Source: Cumulibacter soli (GTDB lineage Bacteria > Actinomycetota > Actinomycetes > Mycobacteriales > Antricoccaceae). From it: a stretch of 64,000 nt of DNA. The stretch spans positions 124,001-188,000 of the forward strand of contig NZ_SMSG01000006.1 in assembly GCF_004382795.1 (NCBI RefSeq). The letters run 5' to 3'. The position numbers and the translations under genes were made by a program. The notes under the pieces were generated by a model, which saw nothing but the letters and a program-made list of their open reading frames with translations, had not been told where the DNA came from and did no database searches. Positions 60,128-63,747 of the stretch are shown one piece after another; the first letter of the stretch is position 1, and each line of letters starts with the position of its first letter.

Positions 60128-60601
60128 ATGCCCGACGATGACGACAACGCCACGTGGACACCACAGACCGACCCGGACGGGTACACGAGGGCCGAGTTAA
60201 GACCGCGCGATAATCTGCTGAACTCGTTGCTGAGCATCATCTTCGATAGCGAAGCCATCCCTGATGAGGCGTCATTTTCAATGACAGTGGTGACGGGTGG
60301 AGCCCTTGTAAGTGGAATCGTCGTTAGCCAAGCTGTATTCGCCCGACGCGTCTCTGATGGACTTCGTCAGGCGAACGGTGGCGATAACTTCGCGTTCATC
60401 GTTGACGAGATCGTGAACGCCCAGAGCGAACTAGACGCCGAGATTAAAGCGGGTCGCGATGGGATTGCGCCGGCAATCCCCGTTCGGTATCTGCATATGC
60501 GCGATGTGACCGTAATGTCAGGGGGCGGGCCACTTCAGTTCAGCAATTGGCGATGCCGGCTAGAGTCCATCGACGGGTGGACGTTTGGCAGTCTGGGCTA
60601 A
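60128..60601 (+). CDS. Opposite-strand prophage cargo protein, GvpU-like
   Basis: 157 residues from ATG 60128 with GGAGAG upstream. It is the only plus-strand gene supported in the prophage and is inserted between portal and large terminase. The pattern SMTVVTGGALVSGIVVSQAV, then YLHMRDVTVM and finally RCRLESIDGWTFGSL resembles the gas-vesicle accessory protein GvpU of actinobacteria (strand-rich core with 'vsG.lvs..yf', 'ihl.da', 'W..RL..vdgf.lG'). The similarity is remembered, not computed. No other gas vesicle gene is present. Its stop TAA overlaps the terminase stop. Probably a lysogenic-conversion gene. Confidence 0.6.
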   Translation: MPDDDDNATWTPQTDPDGYTRAELRPRDNLLNSLLSIIFDSEAIPDEASFSMTVVTGGALVSGIVVSQAVFARRVSDGLRQANGGDNFAFIVDEIVNAQSELDAEIKAGRDGIAPAIPVRYLHMRDVTVMSGGGPLQFSNWRCRLESIDGWTFGSLG

Positions 60602-61914
60602 CTGACCGAGCGAGTTAGTCCACGGATGCGGCGGCGGGAGTCCGACACGAACTCGCCGTCACCCTCGGGCACCGGGGCAGGCGCGAGCCACGATCGCCAC
60701 TGCGACCGGAGCGCCATCACCCCATACCTGAGCGCGTCCACGCCGTGATCGTTCAACTTCACCGGCCGATCCTCGCCATCGTCCGCGGCCTTCTCATCCC
60801 ACACGTACCCCAACAGTTCGTCCCACAACGCGGACGCATCCGCGCGATGCACAACGAGGTGCTGGTTCTTGAACAGCGCGGCGACGGACCGGATGCCGTC
60901 GAGGACGGTGTTGTCTGCCGAGCGGACTGTCCAGCCGTCGCGTCGGAGTTGCTGTCGGAACGACGCAGCCGAGGGGTCGACAACGATCGGGAGGCTGCTG
61001 GTCGCGTGGCCGAGGCCCTTCACCCACTCGCCCAACTTCGCGCTGGTCTCGCCGTCCGTGAGTTGGCCGTCATTCCTGCCGTCATGCCGCCACTCACTCG
61101 CGGCAGTGATCCGACGCCGCGACTTGTCAACGTGAAGGAGGACGGCATGGGTCGGGTTCAAGGTGCCGTAGTCGAGCGCGATCAAAGCGGGCGCGCCCGT
61201 CACCTCACTGGTGGTGTTCGCTTCCTCTGACAGGGCCTCGAAGATCGCGCCCTCGGCAGCGACCCAAAGGCCGTCGATGAACCGCTTATAGAACAACCCC
61301 GCGAGGGAGCGTTTGAGGCGCGCTTTCTCCTGCTCGTCAAGGGCCGGGTTGTCGTCGAGGGTGAAATGCCAGGTCCGCATCCCGATCTCTCGGGCCTTGT
61401 CGATTTTCTTCCGTTTCAGCCAGTGCGCGGGGCTGTCTGGGTTTGTGGTCGCGAAGATCTTCGCGCCCTGGCTGAACGTCGTGATGTGCCGCGTCTCCAG
61501 CATCGACCAGTAAGACTCGTTCGGTAGCAGCGTGGCCTCGTCCACGTATGCCCCGGCCAGGGTCAGGCCGCGGATTCGGGACTCGGCTTTGGCGTCGTTC
61601 GCGCCGACCATGTGCACGCGCCGCCCGAACAACCGTCCTTCGTTGGCGCCGGCCGTGTGGGCTAGCGGTGACGCGTCACCGAAGTACGCGTCGATCTCGT
61701 CGAGAACGTTCCGGCGGATCGTGTCTTTCGTTTTCCCGATCATGATCAGCGGGCCGGGTGGCGCTAGTGCGTCGACGTAGGCGCACCACGCGAGGACGCT
61801 CGCTGTTGTTTTCCCGCTACGGACGGCGCCTTCCCATAGGTGCAGTGGGTCGGGTGATCGGAGCGTGTCCCGGATCGATACTCGCTGCTTCCGGCTCAGC
61901 TTCGCGGGTTTCAT
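60598..61914 (-). CDS. Terminase large subunit
   Basis: 438 residues, ATP-driven DNA packaging motor and nuclease. Walker A GAVRSGKT (29-36), Walker B AYVDEA (122-127), coupling motif TTNPDSP and nuclease acids in ALDYGTLNPTHAVL and VDPSAASFRQ, and DHGVDALRYG close to the end. The PBSX/SPP1 type. Its start overlaps the terminase small stop by 4 nt. Its stop overlaps that of the convergent cargo gene. Confidence 0.94.
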   Translation of the reverse strand: MKPAKLSRKQRVSIRDTLRSPDPLHLWEGAVRSGKTTASVLAWCAYVDALAPPGPLIMIGKTKDTIRRNVLDEIDAYFGDASPLAHTAGANEGRLFGRRVHMVGANDAKAESRIRGLTLAGAYVDEATLLPNESYWSMLETRHITTFSQGAKIFATTNPDSPAHWLKRKKIDKAREIGMRTWHFTLDDNPALDEQEKARLKRSLAGLFYKRFIDGLWVAAEGAIFEALSEEANTTSEVTGAPALIALDYGTLNPTHAVLLHVDKSRRRITAASEWRHDGRNDGQLTDGETSAKLGEWVKGLGHATSSLPIVVDPSAASFRQQLRRDGWTVRSADNTVLDGIRSVAALFKNQHLVVHRADASALWDELLGYVWDEKAADDGEDRPVKLNDHGVDALRYGVMALRSQWRSWLAPAPVPEGDGEFVSDSRRRIRGLTRSVS

Positions 61915-62417
61915 TCGTCACCGTCGTCGTCGAGGCCAGCGACCAGCCGCTGAATCAACGCGGACGCTTCACCGCTCGTCGCCCGTTCCGCTTCAAGCCG
62001 AGCGAGATCATTCGCCGTCTTCACCAACGTCGCCGCCGACGTAACGAGATTCCGAATGTCGCCAGTCGGCGGGCGGTCGAGCGTGTGCTCGGTGTAGGTG
62101 TTGTCTTTACCGCCGATGTTGAACACGAGATGCGGACGGCCGAGCTGCTGCAGGAACTCGCCCGCCCGACGCAACGATTCTTCCTGCAGGTTCTCACGCC
62201 GCGCCGCGTTCCGTTCACGCGCGGACTCATGCGCCGCAGACACCTTCGACAACGCCGCATCATTCGTAACGCCATAACGCTTGCACGCGTCACGCACCGT
62301 CGACCTCGAACACGCGAACCGCTCGGCAACCTCACGCAGCGAATAACCGGCAGCGCGCGCGTCGGCCATCGCTTGACGCTCCTCAGCGGTGAACCGAGGA
62401 CGACCACCACCGGCCAC
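61911..62417 (-). CDS. Terminase small subunit
   Basis: 168 residues from GTG 62417. An N-terminal HTH (MADARAAGYSLREVAERFAC and SRSTVRDACKRYGV) would bind the packaging site, followed by a charged helical oligomerisation part. Overlaps the large subunit start (ATGA). The packaging site is expected in the adjoining gene-free 62418-62665. Confidence 0.85.
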   Translation of the reverse strand: MAGGGRPRFTAEERQAMADARAAGYSLREVAERFACSRSTVRDACKRYGVTNDAALSKVSAAHESARERNAARRENLQEESLRRAGEFLQQLGRPHLVFNIGGKDNTYTEHTLDRPPTGDIRNLVTSAATLVKTANDLARLEAERATSGEASALIQRLVAGLDDDGDE

Positions 62418-62450: not shown

Positions 62451-62468
62451 GCACTGCCTGTGCAGTGC
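62451..62468. repeat. Small hairpin in the terminase upstream region
   Basis: GCACTGC-CTGT-GCAGTGC, 7-bp perfect stem. In the gene-free 248-nt region that should contain the packaging (cos or pac) site. Confidence 0.4.
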
Positions 62469-62500: not shown

Positions 62501-62578
62501 TGGACCTATGGGGAGTCGAACCCCAGTCCAGCGTGGTTCCGCGTGCGGCTTTCCTCGCTGTCGATACCTTCTAGGCCC
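62501..62578 (-). ncRNA. 78-nt tRNA-like structure resembling a tmRNA TLD without mRNA part
   Basis: Minus strand. Acceptor stem GGGCCTA / TAGGTCC, 7 bp including a G3-U70 wobble, and discriminator A: the alanine identity set. T-arm TGGGG-TTCGACT-CCCCA is perfect. There is no D-stem (an 11-nt loop GAAGGTATCGA instead), and no anticodon arm: a 5-bp CAGCG/CGCTG helix encloses 22 nt. This is the layout of a tmRNA tRNA-like domain, but with the tag-coding part absent. CCA is not encoded. Alternatives are a decayed tRNA or a packaging-site hairpin. Confidence 0.55.
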
Positions 62579-62579
62579 T

Positions 62580-62618
62580 GCGTTGGGCGGCCCGTGTAGT
62601 GGACAGGCAACCCAACGC
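62580..62618. repeat. Hairpin adjacent to the tRNA-like structure
   Basis: GCGTTGGG and its complement CCCAACGC, 8-bp stem, 23-nt loop. It ends 2 nt before the 5' end of the tRNA-like structure and could be a processing signal or part of the packaging site. Confidence 0.5.
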
Positions 62619-63124: not shown

Positions 63125-63520
63125 TTATGCGGTTGCGCGACCAGCTTTGCGGCGTGCCCGTGCTTCCTGTTCGTATTTTGCGTGCGCGTCCCGACATTTC
63201 CCGCAACGACACCCCGGCCAGCGGCTGCTGCCCATGTACCGGGATCGGGAGCCATGGACGGGCCGCAGGTCGCGGTTCGTGATCGCGAACAGCTCGCCGC
63301 GTTTGCGGGCGGGGAGTCCGGCGATGATGCCCATGTCGGGGTCGCGGCCATGTTCGAGGAGGCATTCGAGCGCGACGGGGCACGTGTTGCAGACGAGGAT
63401 CGCTTCGGCGTTGATGTGCGGAGGTTGGTCGGCGTCCCAGGATTGGACGGGTAGATCGGATTGGGCGCAGGCTGCTTGTTCGGTCCAGGCGCTGGGTCGG
63501 CCGATGGGTGGCGAGGTCAT
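63125..63520 (-). CDS. WhiB-family iron-sulfur regulator (phage-encoded)
   Basis: 131 residues from ATG 63520, AAGGACG upstream; open frame to 63571. Four cluster cysteines: Cys18, Cys44, Cys47, Cys53 (C-x2-C-x5-C), and GIIAGLPARKR in place of the G-[V/I]-W-G-G turn. An extra C-terminal CRCGKC (Cys104-109) is beyond the usual family length. Phage WhiB proteins can act on host WhiB2 targets. It overlaps the neighbour by 4 nt. Confidence 0.88.
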   Translation of the reverse strand: MTSPPIGRPSAWTEQAACAQSDLPVQSWDADQPPHINAEAILVCNTCPVALECLLEHGRDPDMGIIAGLPARKRGELFAITNRDLRPVHGSRSRYMGSSRWPGCRCGKCRDAHAKYEQEARARRKAGRATA

Positions 63521-63747
63521 GCTGCGTCCTTGCGGTGTTGGGGTTGGCTCGTTAAATGCCACGCGGTGCACCGGCAGCGGTATGCGGCGGTGGGCGGGTG
63601 GCCGGCGGGTAGGCCTTGCGCGGTGAGGTGGCCGGTGATGGTGCGGGAGTAGGCGAGGGCGCGGGTGGCGTCGCGTTTGTTGCGGAAGGCCCGTTTTTCG
63701 GGGTGTGGGCAGCCCGGCCGCGGGGCGGCTAGAACGCGGGGCCGCAT
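63517..63747 (-). CDS. Small zinc-ribbon-like phage protein
   Basis: 76 residues from ATG 63747 with AGAGGACC upstream. Cys13 with a nearby His, and CRCTAWHLT near the end, form a C/H set typical of small actinophage proteins with 'YRC.CGAWHLT'. Unknown role, possibly DNA binding. Overlaps the WhiB start (ATGA). Confidence 0.72.
   Translation of the reverse strand: MRPRVLAAPRPGCPHPEKRAFRNKRDATRALAYSRTITGHLTAQGLPAGHPPTAAYRCRCTAWHLTSQPQHRKDAA

Follow-up and report, generated by a model that had tools for sequence, protein, structure and literature searches.

A tag-less mini-tmRNA in a Cumulibacter soli prophage and in diverse phages, a probable antagonist of trans-translation

What is the 78-nt tRNA-like sequence that lies ahead of the terminase genes in a prophage of Cumulibacter soli, and what could a phage use it for? 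We analysed this sequence within a window of 64,000 nt, the whole stretch of DNA under study (contig NZ_SMSG01000006.1, positions 124,001 to 188,000), in which the first-pass annotation had described a structure with alanine identity and no anticodon. The element is a mini-tmRNA, that is, a tmRNA tRNA-like domain without the mRNA-like domain, and is encoded on the minus strand, with its 5' end at 62578 and its 3' end at 62501.

Read in order, the element is GGGCCTA GAAGGTATCGA CAGCGAG GAAAGCCGCACGCGGA AC CACGCTG GAC TGGGG TTCGACT CCCCA TAGGTCC A. The 5' strand of the acceptor stem, GGGCCTA (62572..62578, with G3 at 62576), pairs at 7/7 positions with the 3' strand, TAGGTCC (62502..62508), which places the U70 equivalent at 62504 opposite G3, and the discriminator A (A73) is located at 62501. 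The tmRNA-type D-loop, GAAGGTATCGA (62561..62571; loop sequence GAAGGTATCGAC), has no stem and aligns both to RF00023 and to GGTTTCGAC of the homologues. The P2 arm is formed by CAGCGAG (62554..62560) and CACGCTG (62529..62535), with a subsequent G-C pair and one A-A mismatch, and the T arm, TGGGG-TTCGACT-CCCCA (62509..62525), has 5/5 pairs. The mRNA-like domain is wholly replaced by a conserved core, GAAAGCCGCACGCGGA (62538..62553), consisting of an internal loop and a CCG-CACG-CGG hairpin. Every structural part that the first-pass annotation had listed was recovered on the minus strand, namely, the 7-bp acceptor with G3-U70 and an A discriminator, the stemless D-loop, the short helix in place of the anticodon arm, and the perfect TTCGACT T-arm. 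The minus-strand fold reproduces exactly the acceptor, P2 and T-arm (MFE -29.9, z -1.97); a plus-strand RNA was rejected, its fold not being significant (z -0.93). Such single-sequence folding energy is moderately unusual and too weak as proof, and it is the comparative evidence that is decisive. The discriminator is directly followed by CAA, so that the CCA end is not encoded in the window element; it is encoded in 10/62 relatives.

The tmRNA model RF00023 matched the minus strand from 62578 to 62498 at 49.6 bits, against a gathering score of 47, and was aligned end to end, apart from a large internal deletion, in agreement with the earlier proposal of a tmRNA tRNA-like domain with alanine identity from which the tag insert is gone. 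The tRNA model RF00005 stayed below its cut-off, RF02544 (the tag-less mitochondrial tmRNA) gave no match at its gathering score, and ARAGORN reported no tRNA or tmRNA on the element. The element resembles tRNA-Ala in its alanine identity and tRNA-like length, but it has no anticodon arm with an alanine anticodon, and a D-stem is absent both from its fold and from the homologue alignment. With canonical tmRNA (RF00023; exemplified by the host gene and that of Streptomyces phage Riptide, 94862-95130) it shares the acceptor with G3-U70, A73, the D-loop, the T-arm and the start of P2, whereas the mRNA-like domain of about 300 nt, with its pseudoknots, tag frame and stop, is absent.

In the window element, the D-loop and the GGAC motif are just 30 nt apart. 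Across 62 non-redundant elements, we found no conserved stop position or tag frame: stop positions are scattered, and 15 of the 62 lack a stop in all frames from the D-loop to the T-stem. A candidate tag frame read within the core (GCC GCA...) was rejected for want of a conserved stop. Some relatives are reduced to a bare hairpin, with a total length of 67 or 64 nt. An Anaerolineae MAG carries a 64-nt bare-P2-hairpin form (66.6 bits) with a second, weaker match directly upstream (L160:592-668 and 737-800).

To delineate the family, we searched viral and cellular sequences. In phage records, blastn matched Streptomyces phages LuckySocke and GiJojo over the full length of the element, and its partial matches in BRock, pSt2308 and Riptide proved to be full length once inspected. 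A consensus query added Alone3 and Stenotrophomonas phage Jojan60, giving seven named isolates with Streptomyces and Stenotrophomonas as hosts. The isolate records that were read have no annotated RNA there, and that of GiJojo places a hypothetical protein across the element. The exact 16-mer GAAAGCCGCACGCGGA occurs in 35 viral contigs, in 33 of them with the T-arm and tRNA-like surroundings. A search pattern that fixed only the D-loop GGTTTCGAC, GGAC, the T-arm and a gap of 15-45 nt, leaving the acceptor and P2 free, matched at least 120 viral contigs versus 5 in a 257-Gb genome collection. Of the latter five, two, from Microvirga, do not pass the acceptor test, and three are on contigs assembled from metagenomes. 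The Microvirga lenta matches (L157, L158) are tmRNA-like copies with a 39-nt insert and a poor acceptor (5/7), perhaps ssrA remnants or attachment-site copies. A D-loop variant, GGATTCGAC, was found in 5 viral contigs only, and a plasmid search returned nothing beyond a 31-nt T-arm match.

Since the search pattern was silent on both the acceptor and P2, their pairing provides independent tests of the fold. Among 77 distinct raw matches, 75 have seven acceptor pairs together with G3-U70, neither of which the pattern demanded, and A73 is universal among matches with at least 6 acceptor pairs; G3-U70 is likewise present in 33/33 aligned and 62/62 non-redundant sequences. In P2, a mean of 5.5 of 6 pairs form, compared to 2.6 after swapping 3' halves between sequences (maximum of 500 swaps, 3.0). 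Over 33 diverse homologues, 95.9% of base-pair cells are kept versus 72.4% in shuffled alignments, 14 pairs show two-sided changes, and the covariation score is 0.613 versus 0.133 when shuffled and at most 0.112 when slid. The compensatory changes, which the first-pass annotation had proposed to look for in relatives, fall in the acceptor (positions 4-7), P2 (helix 19-25/46-52 of alignment A2) and T stems (outer pairs), and RNAalifold recovered the same three helices. The conserved core has the consensus AAA-CCG-CAYG-CGG-A. Moreover, in LuckySocke, GiJojo and a third phage background (L018), the element is 78/78 identical between unrelated flanks (11-18 identities in 60-nt flanks), so that conservation starts and stops at the RNA.

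The covariance model R1 was built on alignment A2, which has uniform spacing, a first MAFFT alignment (A1) having misplaced acceptors with 4-5 nt spacers. R1 scored the window element at 89.7 bits and mini forms in general at 48-93 bits, against at most 40 for the tested tRNAs and ordinary tmRNAs; near this boundary lie an 89-90-nt form of Microbacterium phages (39 bits) and the Microvirga pair (36 bits). In 299 genomes of the host order and 396 of the phylum, a strong R1 match occurred in the window's own genome only, under a strict prefilter that may lose weak matches. The element is virus cargo, almost confined to viruses.

In the window, the element resides in a prophage of about 36 kb (extent estimated from gene order) that encodes an endolysin, tape measure and other tail proteins, a major head protein, portal, terminase, RecE-like exonuclease and integrase, the last about 14 kb from the element at the other end. 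The element ends 83 nt upstream of an HTH protein gene in the small-terminase position (61911..62417, minus strand; phrog_5536, unknown function), which adjoins the terminase large subunit gene (60598..61914, minus strand; phrog_2, E 1.6e-40), as expected from its first description as lying ahead of the small terminase gene. Upstream of the terminase genes, the prophage also encodes a WhiB-like regulator (63125-63571, minus strand). Two inverted repeats flank the RNA: GCGTTGGGCGGCCCGT/ACAGGCAACCCAACGC (62580-62618), which ends one base short of the RNA 5' end and could be a leader hairpin or the terminator of the preceding gene, and a perfect 7-bp repeat, GCACTGC/GCAGTGC (62451-62468), in the gap separating the RNA from the small-terminase-like gene, possibly a site for packaging or regulation.

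Elsewhere the surroundings differ. By simple ORF picking, and therefore approximately, the element lies between the head protease and major capsid genes in about 29 contigs and near exonuclease, DnaB-like helicase or endonuclease VII genes in about 20; tRNA genes are located within 1.5 kb of it in 24/136 cases (also approximate), and some copies are inside tRNA arrays. No neighbour is common to all homologues, nor does any gene family consistently accompany the RNA. Such variable contexts favour a trans-acting RNA over a packaging site or cis regulator. The host encodes its own full tmRNA on another contig (C1:72282-72652, 133.6 bits) as well as SmpB (C1:78391-78813), and no SmpB gene was detected in 26 phage records searched, which suggests that any SmpB partner would be the host's. 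We found no second, full-length tmRNA in 18 IMG/VR records. In Streptomyces phage Riptide (L013/L168), a full tmRNA whose tag can be read as ANSKFAFALAA coexists with a diverged mini form at 83.3 kb.

The first-pass annotation had known of no described mini-tmRNA, a claim that the literature overturns. Two papers describe a 'TLD only' tmRNA in mycobacteriophage DS6A, crediting Mao et al. 2009, and state that this form, or a similar molecule, inhibits the host tmRNA, with E. coli as the setting (PMC4131195; PMC11915505). One of the citing papers has the inhibition independent of charging and names SmpB titration as a possible cause (PMC11915505; PMC4131195, citing Mao et al. 2009). Like the DS6A molecule, the window element is phage-borne and comprises little more than the tRNA-like domain of tmRNA, without a tag: 78 nt in a prophage that has genes for integrase, terminase, capsid and tail. 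DS6A, which we compared by description only, is a single published example, whereas the family identified here is found in many unrelated phages and shows covariation. Loss of the mRNA-like region with retention of the tRNA-like domain is also described for the jakobid mitochondrial tag-less tmRNA (RF02544) and for a CDS-less plastid tmRNA of about 65 bp in Mallomonadaceae (PMC11915505). These RNAs share the tag-less tRNA-like plan with the window element but are organellar, the mitochondrial ones being mostly permuted genes with nuclear SmpB, and have no relation to phages or to the phage core. The kind of molecule is therefore already known, from DS6A and from mitochondria and plastids. The breadth of the family, the conserved core hairpin, the covariation and the invariant G3-U70 appear to be undescribed in the literature searched, although absence there is not proof, and, apart from the published DS6A example, the widespread family appears to have been unrecognised so far.

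In tmRNA, the D-loop and T-arm form the docking region for SmpB and EF-Tu, and G3-U70 together with A73 constitutes the identity recognised by AlaRS. Sequence comparison establishes the fold of the element and shows that this fold is conserved in many phages, that the element carries the alanine identity pair and that it lacks a tag frame. We propose that the element is probably a decoy, able to be alanylated and to bind SmpB, that antagonises trans-translation in the host, which retains the decoy reading of the first-pass annotation. Under this model, the phage would encode a tag-less tmRNA with a complete tRNA-like domain, in which a short P2 arm and the conserved hairpin take the place of the mRNA-like domain and pseudoknots. 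The RNA would be transcribed in a phage operon and processed as a tRNA is, by trimming and addition of CCA; host AlaRS would alanylate it via G3-U70, and host SmpB and EF-Tu would bind it. Having no template, the mini-tmRNA could not complete trans-translation and would thus compete with the host tmRNA for SmpB, EF-Tu and stalled ribosomes, sparing phage products from tagging and degradation. We favour antagonism on account of these template-less docking and charging features combined with the inhibition reported for the DS6A-type molecule. That diverse phages strictly retain G3-U70 suggests that it is the charged form that acts, rather than mere titration of SmpB: pure titration would not require an invariant G3-U70, and the reported activity irrespective of charging by itself leaves this pair unexplained.

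Two observations fit antagonism less well. Simple titration would not call for the conserved core (AAA-CCG-CAYG-CGG-A), which counts against the favoured reading, and the full tagging tmRNA that Riptide carries alongside the mini form is awkward for a plain inhibitor. Both speak for a minimal rescue factor, in which the alanyl-mini-tmRNA with SmpB would take the nascent chain onto its alanine in stalled ribosomes and free it untagged, so that truncated phage proteins are released rather than degraded, in the manner of the tmRNAs without a tag in some mitochondria and plastids. The core would then have a specific partner, possibly ribosomal, the invariant G3-U70 and A73 together with the complete T-arm imply that charging and EF-Tu are required, and the tag-less organellar tmRNAs are conserved together with SmpB (PMC11915505). 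Nevertheless, peptide release without a stop codon has no known step, and the single published test of such a molecule reportedly gave inhibition, making a rescue function unlikely. More tentatively than simple antagonism, the family could be more than a trimmed tmRNA, namely, a distinct, virus-specific class of charged, tag-less rescue or anti-rescue RNA whose AAA/CCG-CAYG-CGG core is dedicated to binding the ribosome or SmpB, through which many phages would seize the handling of stalled ribosomes in an alanyl-dependent manner. The retention of the core hairpin beyond what titration needs would also suit another use of the alanylated RNA, as an alanine donor to a phage or cell-wall enzyme or as a platform for a phage protein via the CACG hairpin; this we consider improbable given that no gene family is consistently linked to it.

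The remaining explanations dispense with a charged RNA. That RNase P and 3' nucleases excise the fold from a polycistronic phage mRNA, creating a new 5' end for the next gene, accords with its location directly ahead of the major capsid gene in many contigs and ahead of the terminase genes in the window. Nonetheless, G3-U70, the tmRNA D-loop sequence, P2 and the core hairpin are conserved though RNase P needs none of them, and many copies, in tRNA arrays or replication regions, share no downstream gene, so we regard such processing punctuation as quite improbable. A cis-acting DNA element, whether a cos/pac or an attachment site, that merely resembles tmRNA would fit the proximity to the small-terminase-like gene and the flanking inverted repeats. 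It is very improbable: the packaging signal suggested by the first-pass annotation is contradicted by homologues in tRNA arrays, ahead of the capsid gene or in replication regions, untied to terminase, and pairing is kept by compensatory change, the conserved G-U included. An attachment site was rejected specifically, given that no long exact core is common to the element and the host ssrA and that the integrase lies at the far end. The small size of the element, and nothing else, speaks for a decayed tmRNA or tRNA relic, as also suggested earlier, or for a chance fold; the chance of either is negligible, both being refuted by the covariation, the swap controls and the sharply bounded identity of the element in three phage lineages.

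Phage control of trans-translation is an old question that has so far rested on one odd phage, DS6A. The alignment, the covariance model and the named Streptomyces phage isolates make it directly testable, and the breadth of the family suggests that phages commonly block or bypass ribosome rescue, a point of relevance to phage-host conflict and to trans-translation as a target for drugs. Mini-tmRNA genes are missed or misnamed by standard annotation, the Rfam label being that of a plain tmRNA.

The searches also brought up other tmRNA-like forms. Matches by blastn to the 3' half alone, in Gordonia integrase regions, cyanophages, Pseudomonas phages and a fecal phage, included none at a mini-form score, and those in cyanophages are other tmRNA forms. 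Cyanophages S-CRM01, S-CAM1 and S-SSM7 (L175, L176, L181) carry permuted, two-piece cyanobacterial-type tmRNA genes above the Rfam cut-offs (RF01851/RF04321), which in their records are unannotated or lie under hypothetical proteins. Finally, the 89-90-nt tRNA-like form of Microbacterium phages, including Skylord and Quenya (L051:2938-3027 and L052:2939-3027; about 10 records), is unannotated, adjoins tRNA-Asn/tRNA-Gln close to the right genome end, and has the same acceptor with G3-U70 and the same T-arm with a longer internal hairpin, possibly representing a second type of mini-tmRNA.
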